Positions 55,783 to 61,511 of a DNA stretch of 64,000 nt are shown here, one piece after another. The translations under genes were made by a program, and so were the position numbers. Position 1 is the stretch's first letter. Every line of letters starts with the position of its first letter. The notes under the pieces are model-generated. The model was not told where the DNA came from. It saw only the letters and a list, made by a program, of their open reading frames with translations, and searched no databases. This DNA comes from Erythrobacter sp. QSSC1-22B. Its GTDB lineage: Bacteria; Pseudomonadota; Alphaproteobacteria; Sphingomonadales; Sphingomonadaceae. The stretch spans positions 372,001 to 436,000 of the forward strand of contig NZ_LZRP01000001.1 of NCBI RefSeq assembly GCF_001678665.1, in the 5' to 3' direction.

Positions 55783-55946
55783 GCCACCCCTCCCGTGCCA
55801 ATGAGAGGCAGACCGCCAGTGGAGAGCGCAAGTCCGAGCCCGCAGGGCTCGCAAGCGCGACCGCGCGCCGGCCGGCTAGGCCGCCAGCCAAGTGCGCGGA
55901 TGCGCACGCCGGCGCCTGAGGCGAAAACAAAAGGATGGTCTGCCAT
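55779..55946 (-). CDS. Possible 55-residue ORF coupled to the HTH gene
   Basis: Starts MADHPFVFASGAGVRIRA at ATG 55946 and stops with TGA overlapping the HTH gene ATG (ATGA at 55782-55779). A weak GGAG lies upstream. The C-terminal half is Gly/Leu/Cys-rich and uninformative. The overlap suggests a leader ORF or a coupled small protein; it may also be chance in GC-rich DNA. Confidence 0.25.
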   Translation of the reverse strand: MADHPFVFASGAGVRIRALGWRPSRPARGRACEPCGLGLALSTGGLPLIGTGGVA

Positions 55947-56119
55947 GATCCGTCTCCGTGGGGATGAACGAATCGAACCATTTATGGCATGTGGGGGTCT
56001 GTAGGAAAGGCAAATCAGCAGAGGCATGCACGCTACGAACCAACACGAATCAAGGGTTCCGAGTGACTGGCACAGTCGAGAATTTCTGCTATTTGACGGG
56101 TTGGTTGGAGGCGCATTTT
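55947..56119. other. Left edge of the AT-rich island
   Basis: Base composition falls from GC-rich to AT-rich around 55980-56040. No tRNA remnant, integrase or clear repeat matching the right edge (58329-58487) was found. A GGAGG at about 56106 serves the dGTPase start. The dGTPase frame stays open to 55958 but without ribosome-site support. Confidence 0.5.
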
Positions 56120-57547
56120 ATGGGCAGTTTGTGGTCAGAATATCGAATTGGAAAAAGTGCGAATCTAAAAGATGACCGCCTCGCGCATTCAGGTTCAACG
56201 GACCGGAAGGAGCATCGCTCGGCCTTCCAACGGGACTTCGATCGCTTATTGTTCTCATCACCCGTACGGCGCTTAGCTGATAAGACCCAAGTGTTTCCCC
56301 TCGAACCGAACGACTCGGTTCGAACCCGACTTACGCACTCTCACGAAGTAGCGAACCTTGCCCGCTCAATCGGCGCTCGCCTTCACCATCAAAAGCATCG
56401 TTTTAACGTACAAGGTTCAGACGTCTCGATTACTGAGGTGCTCGCGATCTTGCAGAGTATCGGTCTTGCACACGATTTGGGCAATCCTCCATTTGGGCAC
56501 CAAGGTGAAAAAGCGATTGCGAACTGGTTCAATGCAAGAAAGAGCATTTTAGATCAAATTCCAATTCGATTACATAACGAATTTATCAAATTTGAAGGAA
56601 ACGCACAGACCTTCCGAATACTCACTCGTCTCCAGCAAGGAGTGGGAAATGCTGGATTAGATCTGACGTGCGGAACTTTAGCGGCTCTTATAAAGTATCC
56701 CGTTCCTTGCGACAGAACCGGATCTATGCCTGAAAATAAAAAATATGGATTTTTTGAATCGGAAATCGATTCAATGAACCTTATCTGGAAAAATACGGGC
56801 CTTACTGAAGGTCAGAGGCATCCCCTTGCATGGATAATGGAAGCCGCAGACGATATTGCTTATTCTGTTCTAGATGTCGAAGACGCTATTAAAAAGGGGA
56901 TTATATCTCCAGACGACGTGCGCTTTATTCTTAAGAGTGATGTTCGGGAATATTCTGGTGACGTTTGTGCGCTTTTAAAGGCCGACTTTGGGCATGTGGA
57001 CGAACGCAAGCCTGTCTCAGTCTCAGAATCTCGTGAAATTAAGACGAGTTATCTGAGAACAAGACTAATTGATCAGTTAATAGATGAGGCAGTGAAGTCA
57101 TACCAGAGTCAAGAAGTTCAAATAAAATCGTGCGATGGGGCGTTAGGCCTGCTGGATGATTCTAAGCTGTGCAAGCGACTTAAGAAAATAGCACGAGAGC
57201 ACGCATTCTCTAGCGTAGAGGTTACTCGCGTTGAAGCGAATGGTGCAGGCGCTATTTCCGAGCTTATGTCATTTTTTTGGCACGCTATCAAAAGCCGAGA
57301 AGATGAAAACATACTTGATAGCCGACGCTCGGAAAAAGCAGCCTACGGTTGGTCCCTTCTGAGCGAAAATTATAAAGAGGTTGGTTCAAAAGCTTTTGAT
57401 AACGCAACACCTGGAATGCGGACATACTACGAATGCAGGCTGCTTACCGACATGCTCGCCGGTATGACCGACAGCTTCACCATGAATCTTCATCAAACTT
57501 TAAATTCCGAAGGAAATTTGCGCGGGCTTGAACATGAAAATGCGTAG
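56120..57547 (+). CDS. dGTPase (Dgt-type HD-domain triphosphohydrolase), island-borne
   Basis: A 475-residue protein of full Dgt length. Signatures: RRLADKTQVFP (50-60), RTRLTHSHEV with a metal His about 73, IGLAHDLGNPPFGHQGE (His118-Asp119), FEGNAQTFRIL (158-168), CGTLAALIKYP, and MEAADDIAYSVLDVEDA with metal Asp about 244. All HD metal ligands are present, so activity is expected: dGTP to deoxyguanosine plus triphosphate. The gene is AT-rich (60-base samples 37-48% G+C against 73% at 58561-58620) and uses codons rare in the neighbours, a sign of transfer. ATG 56120 follows GGAGG. It overlaps the next gene by 14 bp. dGTPases are known anti-phage effectors. Confidence 0.92.
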   Translation: MGSLWSEYRIGKSANLKDDRLAHSGSTDRKEHRSAFQRDFDRLLFSSPVRRLADKTQVFPLEPNDSVRTRLTHSHEVANLARSIGARLHHQKHRFNVQGSDVSITEVLAILQSIGLAHDLGNPPFGHQGEKAIANWFNARKSILDQIPIRLHNEFIKFEGNAQTFRILTRLQQGVGNAGLDLTCGTLAALIKYPVPCDRTGSMPENKKYGFFESEIDSMNLIWKNTGLTEGQRHPLAWIMEAADDIAYSVLDVEDAIKKGIISPDDVRFILKSDVREYSGDVCALLKADFGHVDERKPVSVSESREIKTSYLRTRLIDQLIDEAVKSYQSQEVQIKSCDGALGLLDDSKLCKRLKKIAREHAFSSVEVTRVEANGAGAISELMSFFWHAIKSREDENILDSRRSEKAAYGWSLLSENYKEVGSKAFDNATPGMRTYYECRLLTDMLAGMTDSFTMNLHQTLNSEGNLRGLEHENA

Positions 57548-58328
57548 CGTGGGGCGAACCCGTACAACCACCCAAAGAAAAAGTGATATTTCAAAACGCT
57601 TAAAGAGATTTATTGCGACCGATACTCCTGCGATGCGCGAATTGCGAAAGCAGATATTAAACCCTCTTGAGGAGGTCGGTGAAGTTGCGATCATAGGAGG
57701 TCTTGTACGGGACATTATCCGATATGGAGTGGATAAGCGGCCTATATCGGACATGGATCTTGTCATCCAAGGTTCGCCGAGCGCCGTTGCTGCGGTTGCA
57801 AAAAAGCTTAGCGCCAAAGAAAATCGCTTTGGTGGATTTGGATTAAAAACTGATCACTACAAAGTCGATTTTTGGGCACTATCCACAACGTGGGCTAGAA
57901 CACACGCCAATGTGCCGGTTTCATCTATCAAAGACTTGCCGAATAGCACGTTCTTTAACTGGGATGCAGTTGTTTACTCGACGAAAGATAGCAAAACATA
58001 CTTCAAAGAGAATTATTTAGAAGATATCGCCCGAGGATTTTTAGAAGTCAATGTTGCTGAAACTGCTTCCCATCAAGGCAATTTAATTCGCGCATTGCGG
58101 AGGCTTTTCGCTTGGGAGGCGTATCCGGGACCTAAGCTCATTCAATTTTTAAAATCAGCCGCGCCTCAGTACGAGTGGGATGATCTGGTCCGCCAAGAGA
58201 AAGCTGCTTTCTATACCACCTATTTAGATCATTTCTCAGGGTATAATGAATATTTTCGGCGTCTAGAAGATAGCAGCAGCCGGTTTTTACCAGTCCAACT
58301 CTCCCTATTTGCTGACGAACGATACTGA
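57534..58328 (+). CDS. Pol-beta/CCA-adding-like nucleotidyltransferase with clamp-binding tail
   Basis: A 264-residue protein. Residues 50-80 (AIIGGLVRDIIRYG then ISDMDLVIQGS) match the poly(A)-polymerase/CCA-adding enzyme head: GG about 55-56, RD 59-60, catalytic D73 and D75. A third carboxylate is D112 (YKVDFWAL), and FFNWDAVVYS (141-150) stands where such enzymes have RDFTINALAY. The RNA-binding neck and tail of a CCA enzyme are absent. The C-terminus carries QLSLF (255-259), the canonical beta-clamp motif. AT-rich like its partner and overlapping it, so coexpressed. Start ATG 57534 or 57540. Substrate unknown. Confidence 0.82.
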   Translation: MKMRSVGRTRTTTQRKSDISKRLKRFIATDTPAMRELRKQILNPLEEVGEVAIIGGLVRDIIRYGVDKRPISDMDLVIQGSPSAVAAVAKKLSAKENRFGGFGLKTDHYKVDFWALSTTWARTHANVPVSSIKDLPNSTFFNWDAVVYSTKDSKTYFKENYLEDIARGFLEVNVAETASHQGNLIRALRRLFAWEAYPGPKLIQFLKSAAPQYEWDDLVRQEKAAFYTTYLDHFSGYNEYFRRLEDSSSRFLPVQLSLFADERY

Positions 58329-58487
58329 TTGGTTTCGCCCACTACTAATCGAATTTCCTGAATCCGTAGCTCGCAGCGCATGGGTCAACAGGCAACTGCG
58401 AACAAGTCTATCAGGCAAGCGGTCAGGCAGAAGGTTAAGAAGGAAAGTCGGCTCAGGGCGACGAAAGGTAAGCCCCCCCCACCTAAA

Positions 58488-61397
58488 CTACCGCGCCAGC
58501 ATCGGCGCCAGATAATGCCCGGTGACGCTGCGCTTCTCCTTCGCCACCTTCTCGGGCGTCCCTTCCGCGACCACCTCGCCGCCGCGCACGCCGCCATCCG
58601 GCCCTAGATCGAGGATCCAGTCGGCGGTCTTGATGACATCGAGATTGTGCTCGATCACCACCACCGAATTGCCCTGGTCGACCAGCCGGTGGAGCACTTC
58701 CAAGAGCTTGCGGACATCCTCGAAATGCAGCCCGGTGGTCGGCTCGTCGAGGATATAGAGCGTCTGCCCGGTGGAGCGGCGCGCGAGCTCCTTGGCGAGC
58801 TTGACGCGCTGCGCCTCGCCGCCGCTGAGCGTCGTCGCCTGCTGGCCGACCTTGACATAGCCCAAGCCCACCTCGCCCAGCATCCGCATCTTCTCGCGGA
58901 TCGGCGGGACCGCCTTGAAGAATTCCTCGGCATCCTCGATCGTCATGTCGAGCACATCGGCAATGGAGAGGCCCTTGAACTTCACCTCGAGCGTCTCGCG
59001 GTTGTAGCGGCGGCCCGAGCATTGCTCGCAGGTGACGTAGACGTCGGGGAGGAAGTGCATCTCGATCTTGATCAGCCCGTCGCCGTGGCACGCCTCGCAG
59101 CGGCCGCCCTTGACGTTGAAGCTGAAGCGCCCGGGCTTGTAGCCGCGCGCGAGGCTCTCGGGGAGGCCGGCGAACCAGTCGCGGATCTGGGTGAAGGCGC
59201 CGGTGTATGTCGCAGGGTTGCTCCGCGGCGTGCGGCCGATCGGCGACTGGTCGATCTCGATCACCTTGTCGCAATGTTCGAGCCCGGTGACCTTGTCGTG
59301 TTCGCCCGCGATGATCCGCGCGCCGTTGAGCTGGCGCGCGGCGGCGGCATAGAGCGTGTCGATGGTGAAGGAGGACTTGCCGCTGCCCGAGACCCCGGTG
59401 ACGCAGGCGAAGGTGCCCAGCGGGAGCGAGGCGGTGACGTTCTGGAGGTTGTTGGCGCGCGCGCCGTGGACGGTGAGCTTCTTGCCATTGCCCTTGCGGC
59501 GCTTGGGCGGCACCTCGATCTTGCGGCGCCCGGTGAGATAGTCGGCGGTGAGCGAGTTCTTGGCTTTCAGCACCTGCTTGAGCGTGCCCTGCGCGACGAT
59601 CTCGCCGCCGCGCACGCCCGCGCCGGGGCCGAGATCGACGACATGATCGGCCTGGCGGATCGCATCTTCGTCATGCTCGACGACGATGACGGTGTTGCCG
59701 AGATCGCGGAGCCGCTTGAGGGTTTCGAGCAGCCGGTCGTTGTCGCGCTGGTGGAGGCCGATGCTGGGCTCGTCGAGGACGTAGAGCACGCCCGAGAGGC
59801 CCGAGCCGATCTGGCTGGCGAGGCGGATCCGCTGGCTCTCGCCGCCGCTCAGGGTACCTGAAGTTCGGTCGAGGTTTAGATAATCCAGCCCGACATTGTC
59901 GAGGAAGCCCAGCCGCTCGTTGATTTCCTTGAGGATCGCGCGGGCGATCTGGCTGTGGGTGGGGGTGAGATGCGCGTCGAGCCCGAGGAACCACGCCTTG
60001 GCATCGGCGACGCTCATCCTGGTGGGGGTGGCGATATCGGTGGGGCCATCCAGCCCCGCGATCTTCACCGCCAGCGCCTTGTCGTTGAGCCGCTTGCCAC
60101 CGCAGGCCTCGCAGGGCTGCGCGGTCTGGAACTTGGCCAGCTCCTCGCGCATCCACGCGCTTTCGGTCTGGAGCAGGCGGCGGTTGAGATTGCCGATCAC
60201 CCCCTCGAAGGCCTTGTTGACGGTGTATTGCTTGCGCCCGTCCTTGAAGGTCAGCGGCACCCGCGCACCGTTGGTGCCGTGGAGGATGATCTCCCGGTGT
60301 TCGGGGGCGAGGTCCTGCCACGCGGTGGTGAGGTCGAAGCCGTACTCCTTGGCGAGGCTGGCGAGGACCTGGAGATAATAGGGCGATGGCGGGTTGGACT
60401 TGGCCCACGGCATCACCGCGCCCTTCTTGAGGCTCAGCGCTTCGTTGGGGACCACCAGCCGGGGGTCGAACAATTGCTTCTCGCCCAGCCCGTCGCAGGT
60501 CGAGCAGGCGCCCTGGGGGGCGTTGAAGGAGAACAGGCGCGGCTCGATCTCCTCGATGGTGAAGCCGCTGACCGGGCAGGCGAATTTCTCCGAGAAGACG
60601 ATGCGGTTGGCGGCCAGCCCGGCGCCCTTCATCGCGCCGCCGCTCTCGGCTTCGTCTTCGCGACCGGGGACCACGCCATCGGCCAGATCGACATAGGCGA
60701 GCCCGTCGGCGAGCTTGAGCGCCTGTTCGAGACTGTCCGCCAGCCGGGTCTCGAGCCCGGTCTTCACCGCCAGCCGGTCGACCACCACCTCGATGTCGTG
60801 CTTGAGCTTCTTGTCGAGCGCGGGCGCCTCGCCGATCTCGTAGATCTCGCCGTCGATCCGCACGCGGGTGAAGCCCGCCTTCTGCCATTCGGCCAGCTCC
60901 TTGCGGTACTCGCCCTTGCGCCCGCGCACCGCCGGCGCGAGCAGGTAGAGCCGCGTGCCCTCGGGCAGCGCCATCACCCGGTCGACCATGTTGGAGACGG
61001 TCTGTGCCTCGATCGGCAGACCGGTCGCGGGCGAATAGGGGGTGCCGACGCGCGCCCACAGCAGCCGCATGTAATCGTAGATCTCGGTGACGGTCGCCAC
61101 GGTCGAGCGCGGGTTGCGCGAGGTCGTCTTCTGCTCGATCGAGATCGCGGGGCTGAGCCCGTCGATATGTTCGACATCGGGCTTCTGCATCATCTCGAGG
61201 AACTGGCGCGCATAGGCGCTCAGGCTCTCGACGTAGCGCCGCTGCCCCTCGGCATAGATGGTGTCGAAGGCGAGGCTCGACTTGCCCGAGCCGCTGAGCC
61301 CGGTGATCACGATCAGTGCATCGCGCGGCAAATCGATGTCGATGCCCTTGAGATTGTGTTCGCGCGCGCCGCGCACTGAAATCTTGGTGAGTGCCAT
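58488..61397 (-). CDS. uvrA: Excinuclease ABC subunit A
   Basis: A 969-residue damage-recognition ATPase of nucleotide excision repair. Two ABC modules with Walker [15 protein letters not shown] and [17 protein letters not shown] signatures LSGGESQRI and LSGGEAQRV, and zinc-binding CxxC elements ([30 protein letters not shown]). The ATG at 61397 begins [16 protein letters not shown]. An exact LexA box is just upstream, so damage induction is expected. The island ends 160 bp beyond its stop. Confidence 0.98.
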
Positions 61398-61406
61398 GGG
61401 GCGCGT

Positions 61407-61421
61407 GTTCCTGTTGTGTTC
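61407..61421 (-). promoter_or_regulatory. SOS (LexA) box of uvrA
   Basis: GTTCCTGTTGTGTTC (minus strand GAACACAACAGGAAC) is an exact GAAC-N7-GAAC site 9 bp before the ATG. A TTGACA on the minus strand lies just upstream and would be a consensus -35, so the box sits between -35 and the start. Confidence 0.85.
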
Positions 61422-61511
61422 GATGTTGTCAAGCGCGAGAGCCGCCCGGTTCCCCGGTGAGATGGGGACGCGCGGCGCGGCGCGCAACAGCGCGCCCGAC
61501 GCTGCTACGGG

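Follow-up and report, generated by a model that had tools for sequence, protein, structure and literature searches.

A probable Clover anti-phage operon of Erythrobacter with a changed CloA inhibitor pocket and a clamp-like CloB tail

Introduction

Anti-phage dGTPases that stand alone were reportedly described by Tal et al. in 2022. A system that pairs a dGTPase with a nucleotidyltransferase (NT), termed Clover, was posted in July 2025 (PMC12265719; bioRxiv 2025.07.09.663793). According to the accessible text of that report, its effector CloA is a dGTPase activated by dTTP, and its NT, CloB, makes the inhibitor p3diT; inactive CloB leads to toxicity, and the Clover operons of Salmonella and E. 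coli H5 block T5-like phages. p3diT has been isolated from CloA as a free dinucleotide and is also bound in the CloA structure, where Q311 recognises the first thymine, with N181 and R34 binding the 5ʹ phosphates (PMC12265719). At the dTTP contact Y452, the substitution Y452A abolishes activity, and an octamer is among the published traits. The signal has been identified for the Salmonella and Xanthomonas CloB products only. The same report names Hailong and Panoptes/MISS as systems with inhibitory nucleotide signals. As in Clover, the NT product restrains the effector; by their description, these systems differ from Clover in their NT and effector families and in their signals.

The cloAB genes

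The window analysed here, a whole stretch of 64,000 nucleotides from Erythrobacter sp. QSSC1-22B, carries two overlapping genes on its forward (+) strand. The first, cloA (positions 56120 to 57547), encodes a dGTPase effector of 475 aa and reads from an ATG at 56120 to a TAG ending at 57547, preceded by the sequence GGAGG (56107-56111); an extended reading frame of the same gene starts from a GTG at 55958. The second, cloB (57534 to 58328), encodes a class-II NT of 264 aa and reads from an ATG at 57534 to a TGA ending at 58328, with an in-frame TTG at 57528. Both genes are intact and overlap by 14 bp (57534-57547), as an earlier, sequence-only reading of this DNA had described, and the low G+C content noted there is borne out as well (45.7% in cloAB versus 65.8% in the remaining window).

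CloA is assigned as a dGTPase by TIGR01353 (319 bits; cut-off 152), by the PADLOC dGTPase model (5.7e-81) and by its place in the tree described below. It shares its effector chemistry with the stand-alone anti-phage dGTPases, but unlike them has an NT partner; its score against the NCBIfam antiphage_dGTPase model (219 bits) lies below the cut-off of 400. The HD motif (H118, D119) and the HE dyad (H127, E130), encoded at 56471 to 56509 (+ strand), correspond to Salmonella H117, D118, H126 and E129 and are present in 42 of 42 aligned CloA rows.

The assignment of CloB rests on its similarity to E. coli H5 CloB and on a structure model (mean pLDDT 89.9, pTM 0.86; confident over approximately residues 11-249) whose Foldseek matches are CCA-adding enzymes, the best being 5hc9 (E 1.6e-8). 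Pfam PolyA_pol aligns with the head only and scores 17.1 bits, where 23 is the cut-off. The active-site pattern [D/E]h[D/E]..h[D/E]h is present as D73, D75 and D112 (57750 to 57869, + strand), carboxylates that are invariant in 38 alignment rows. Judging from the model, CloB shares the head and neck fold of class-II CCA-adding enzymes. However, at 264 aa it is shorter than the 45 best solved matches (342-517 aa), it lacks the body and tail domains with which those enzymes hold tRNA, and its partner is a dGTPase. The earlier description of an NT without an RNA-binding tail stands, the protein being a class-II (CCA/poly(A)-like) NT.

Membership in the Clover family

The window shares with the Clover systems of Salmonella enterica SA20044414 and E. 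coli H5 (PMC12265719) the gene order, dGTPase and then NT, together with the HD/HE and DhD..hDh motifs, the dTTP-site residues and most p3diT contacts. The CloA family profile (six dGTPases) matches structures 9p8s-9p8v at 518-527 bits, with the next family at 276 bits, and Salmonella CloA is its top solved match (527 bits). These entries are taken to be the CloA of PMC12265719 because the residue numbers published there fit them; the only misfit is residue 377, a Q in that report and an E in the chain taken as Salmonella CloA, and the identifiers printed in the report read 8P9S-8P9V rather than 9p8s-9p8v. The family set also includes E. coli H5, whose operon is named in the report (locus L132, retrieved with Geobacter-type cloAB DNA), and Methylobacterium symbioticum SB0023/3, which is named in a figure legend (locus L036). 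Window CloB is 28.3% identical to its E. coli H5 counterpart (8e-31).

Membership is also evident from the residues of CloA. R29, D37, R38, F41, R47, R314, S418 and N420 are, like HD and HE, kept in all 42 rows of the alignment, from which rows under 440 aa were dropped. At the dTTP site, window CloA keeps R47, D61, Q172, K256, S418, N420 and T449; the dTTP contact Y452 is F453 here, and F in 33 of the 42 rows. The dTTP-site signature Q172/K256/S418/N420 is found in 44/46 Clover rows and in none of seven dGTPases without an NT neighbour. Moreover, the Clover CloAs group as a single clade (support 100/99) in a rooted tree, apart from six other dGTPases; Enterobacter Dgt was left out of this tree, and L035, L036, L037 and L051 are absent from it and from the clade counts below.

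The window pair is thus a member of the Clover family with intact active sites, and it is very probably a Clover anti-phage system that would work in the published manner. Points against this are F453 in place of Y452, the PolyA_pol and antiphage_dGTPase scores below cut-off, the lack of significance of the pocket change when set beside every conserved column, and the housekeeping flanks. The sequence-only reading knew of no described system with this pairing; that was wrong, as Clover was described in 2025 (PMC12265719), and a new system was rejected for the same reason. Activation of the effector in the manner of CBASS was likewise rejected, since the published Clover NT product inhibits. 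The suggestion that the NT regulates its partner, on the other hand, agrees with Clover, whose NT makes a diffusible inhibitory dinucleotide (PMC12265719). The system itself is already known; the new elements are a branch whose inhibitor pocket is altered and a CloB tail that resembles a clamp-binding motif.

Following the scheme reported from Salmonella and E. coli, CloA would be kept inactive by a small deoxynucleotide from CloB. When dTTP rises during phage replication, it would bind the neighbouring CloA site and overcome the inhibitor, and the freed CloA would destroy dGTP and so stop phage DNA synthesis. The dTTP-dependent and catalytic part of this scheme should hold for window CloA because the conserved dTTP-site and catalytic residues are kept.

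The inhibitor pocket of clade I

In comparison with Salmonella CloA, three of the ten listed p3diT contacts are changed in the window (T25 to R29, N181 to D181 and Q311 to S310), and seven are kept (R29, R34, D37, R38, F41, N75 and R314). These changes follow a split in the CloA tree. Clade I (support 100/99) consists of the window plus 11 further members, or 14 rows once two later genomes are added; clade II, which includes Salmonella and Methylobacterium, has a support of 99/97. The residue that aligns with the phosphate contact N181, encoded in the window at 56660 to 56662 (+ strand), is D in 12/12 members of clade I, and the residue that aligns with the base contact Q311, encoded at 57047 to 57049 (+ strand), is S or G in 11/12. 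R34 is Q or H in 10/12, with R in the window and in L014. In clade II (n=27), R34 and Q311 are kept in 27/27 and N181 in 26/27. The two later clade I genomes have the same pocket changes.

The clade nevertheless retains D37 and N75, which contact the second thymine, and also R29, R38, F41 and R314, and none of its 19 conserved dTTP/catalytic contacts is changed. The pocket change does not reach significance when compared with all conserved columns (3/9 versus 25/146, P 0.18); compared with the 19 dTTP/catalytic contacts, P is 0.026 in a one-sided calculation made by hand with a self-chosen cut-off. As three p3diT contacts are changed and the dTTP/catalytic contacts are not, the restraining nucleotide of clade I may differ from p3diT, a reading that has roughly even chances. 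Since most p3diT contacts are kept and three are changed, window CloB probably still makes a dinucleotide with dT as its second unit; its first unit or its 5ʹ phosphate state perhaps differs from p3diT. The pocket change of clade I appears to go unmentioned in the accessible text of PMC12265719. With its activator site kept and its inhibitor site changed, the window branch offers a way to learn if Clover employs several restraining nucleotides.

The retained contacts also bear on a toxin-antitoxin-like reading of the pair, in which CloB silences CloA by covalent nucleotidylation and no diffusible nucleotide is involved. CloB is indeed a Pol-beta-type NT in a tight operon, and covalent modification of this kind exists in HEPN/MNT, where MntA acts on HepT (PMC7641770). 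However, the homologues yielded p3diT as a free dinucleotide and hold it in their structure (PMC12265719), and most of its contacts are kept in window CloA, both of which argue against covalent silencing and make it very unlikely.

The C-terminal tail of CloB

Window CloB ends in RFLPVQLSLFADERY. Residues 250-264 have a pLDDT near 45 in the model and form a predicted disordered tail, within which residues 255-259 (58296 to 58310, + strand) read QLSLF and resemble a beta-clamp-binding motif. The consensus given in the accessible text of PMC13254535 is QL[S/D]LF, or Q-phi-x-[LM]-[FL] or Q-phi-x-[LM]-x-[FL]; QLSLF fits the canonical form, and QLNLEF of E. coli H5 CloB can be compared with QVELEF, the Pol III clamp motif given there. 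The CloB of L014, 61% identical to that of the window, keeps RFLPVQLSLF and is divergent after it.

QL[S/D]LF lies in the last 30 residues in 3/22 CloB clusters (one sequence each), whereas shuffled tails average 0.0065 with a maximum of 1 and control ORFs give 0/690. A relaxed tail pattern, composed after the tails had been inspected, occurs in 11/22 clusters, against 0.68 in shuffles and 9/690 control ORFs. Three clusters that were left out (those with L056/L043, L038 and L003) are without the motif, so the full counts are 3/25 and 11/25. The published consensus is matched by 10/47 CloB tails, the 10 including close relatives, and by 0/43 CloA tails; its occurrences in CloB number 10 in 1,410 tail residues versus 2 in 11,368 body residues. 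Among five intact CloBs fetched later, 1/5 fits, namely E. coli H5 with QLNLEF; of the remainder, two carry QLELPGF followed by a last two or three residues and one ends in QLHFQF. No clamp-like motif is present in the Methylobacterium and rhizobial CloB tails. A second E. coli Clover type was observed in strain SCU-301 (L133:3165-5394), between flhB and cheZ, and its CloB, the last of these five, is also without the motif.

From its sequence, the QLSLF tail is probably a docking site for a partner, of which the replication clamp is the likeliest. There is an even chance, though, that the tail is unrelated to the sliding clamp and instead binds CloA or persists as a neutral remnant. This accords with the shortness of the motif, with its absence from Methylobacterium, rhizobial and E. 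coli SCU-301 CloBs, and with the many CloB tails (QLELPGF, QLQLPY) that fall outside the published consensus. Against it stand QLSLF itself, which is the canonical clamp motif, the QLNLEF in the CloB of the tested E. coli H5 operon, and the concentration of the motif in tail over body residues.

If the tail does dock onto the clamp, CloB could be hooked to the host sliding clamp and make the restraining nucleotide where and while the host replisome runs. A phage that dismantles or hijacks the fork would then cause the brake to be lost as dTTP rises, and CloA would fire; in clade I, the brake might be another dinucleotide ending in dT. This extended scheme is tentative and, taken as a whole, rather unlikely. 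If true, Clover would act as a guard with two inputs, watching over both the replisome and the nucleotide pool, and the clamp-like tail, also present in the E. coli H5 enzyme that was tested, would reveal what couples the CloB brake to cellular state. The main text of PMC12265719 mentions neither clamp nor DnaN, p3diT appeared in one relevant paper among those searched, and a literature search on the clamp and anti-phage defence, and on dGTPase/nucleotidyltransferase operons and the sliding clamp, gave no title linking them among the matches listed.

Pairing and distribution

The two families occur together elsewhere, more often than chance would allow. Among 47 non-redundant NTs (counting the window's), a complete or partial dGTPase gene stands immediately upstream in 45, and this pairing is not built into the result because the search used the NT alone. 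L013, L020, L053 and the identical L036 and L037 had been dropped beforehand from this set. The unpaired NTs are a truncated one (L056) and a cyanobacterial one followed by a patatin gene (L003). The latter locus, on plasmid pA of Kovacikia minuta (L003:4818-7609), combines a CloB-like NT (a weak match, 5e-13) with a patatin and inactive-HKD gene; this single case hints at other effectors for CloB-type NTs, and no second NT-patatin locus emerged from a search with this NT.

The pair is rare and patchily distributed. The NT is found in 5/196 related genomes, the window's own included, and more widely in 4/396 genomes of the order, 1/385 of the class and 3/398 of the phylum (one with internal stops), on which counts a conserved core locus was rejected. 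In the other four related genomes and on a conjugative Phaeobacter plasmid, a dGTPase gene 41-48% identical to that of the window lies directly upstream. Scanning with the NT returned 43 loci in genome contigs and one in viral contigs; a phage gene was rejected, as the NT had no match in 50,697 phage records (E 0.01) and only that one viral contig. Salmonella CloA as query found no viral contig. No E. coli locus was recovered with Phaeobacter cloAB DNA as query; Geobacter-type cloAB DNA did retrieve matches there. One pair, L061 (G245), is degraded: its cloB is interrupted by stops and its cloA is fragmented.

dGTPases are common, and housekeeping genes flank the window's cloAB with no defence island in the immediate surroundings, both of which would suit a housekeeping or regulatory control of dGTP with no role in defence. 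This reading is very unlikely. The genome already has another dGTPase gene, cloAB is patchy and AT-rich, and homologous operons block phages (PMC12265719), all of which count against it. The preferred reading, a transferred module that would likely act in defence, had been put forward from the sequence alone; it is sound, and neither of the refuting conditions set there applies: the homologues do co-occur in other genomes, and the pair is no core locus.

Insertion site and neighbouring genes

Downstream of cloAB lies uvrA (58488 to 61487, - strand), a flanking gene outside the system whose 3ʹ end borders the insertion site. cloAB adjoins the uvrA 3ʹ end in five loci (the window, L010, L014, L015 and L016), and all five pairs are AT-rich versus their surroundings. 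The UvrA proteins of L014 and L010 are about equally close to that of the window (86.7% and 87.7% identity), whereas their CloAs are not (69.6% and 48.2%); therefore, the pairs have not simply descended with the site. The interval from the RlpA/HTH gene to the uvrA 3ʹ end (window approximately 55900-58488) is variable in the genus, being empty or holding cloAB, an 842-aa STAND-like gene or two AT-rich genes. In the same-genus genome L121, RlpA and uvrA are approximately 40 bp apart and the site is empty; in L124 and L123 the site is occupied by other AT-rich genes, one of which resembles NB-ARC/nSTAND at a score below the cut-off. L010, L066 and L078 have a second uvrA 3ʹ end, in pieces, at the insertion site. 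No clear repeats were found framing the window insert.

Across the Clover family, 148/335 neighbour ORFs were kept by length and distance and 8 were dropped for size (four uvrA, L010:3125-5470, L014:1607-3931, L050:510-905 and L052:10142-12925), which left 140; the controls, from other genomes, were 132/209. PADLOC family matches number 149 in the 140 neighbour ORFs versus 9 in the 132 control ORFs, these being counts of families, several per gene. Five of the 140 neighbours match a resolvase and five a phage integrase, and 7/140 match DUF5131 and the PADLOC candidates PDC-M30/M41. Directly upstream of cloA, L002 (4460-6478), L038, L042, L045, L046 and L047 carry a DUF5131 (Gp37/Gp68) gene together with another gene, annotated as TcmP in L002.

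QueC-like and 8-oxoguanine-glycosylase-like genes lie near cloAB in E. coli H5 (L132:863-3475) and in five alphaproteobacterial or betaproteobacterial loci (L018, L026, L036, L043 and L048); this recurrent companion module possibly acts on modified guanine. Furthermore, one genome (G068) carries cloAB twice (L009 and L013), with the same serine recombinase neighbour and different outer flanks, and these copies are a recently duplicated element.
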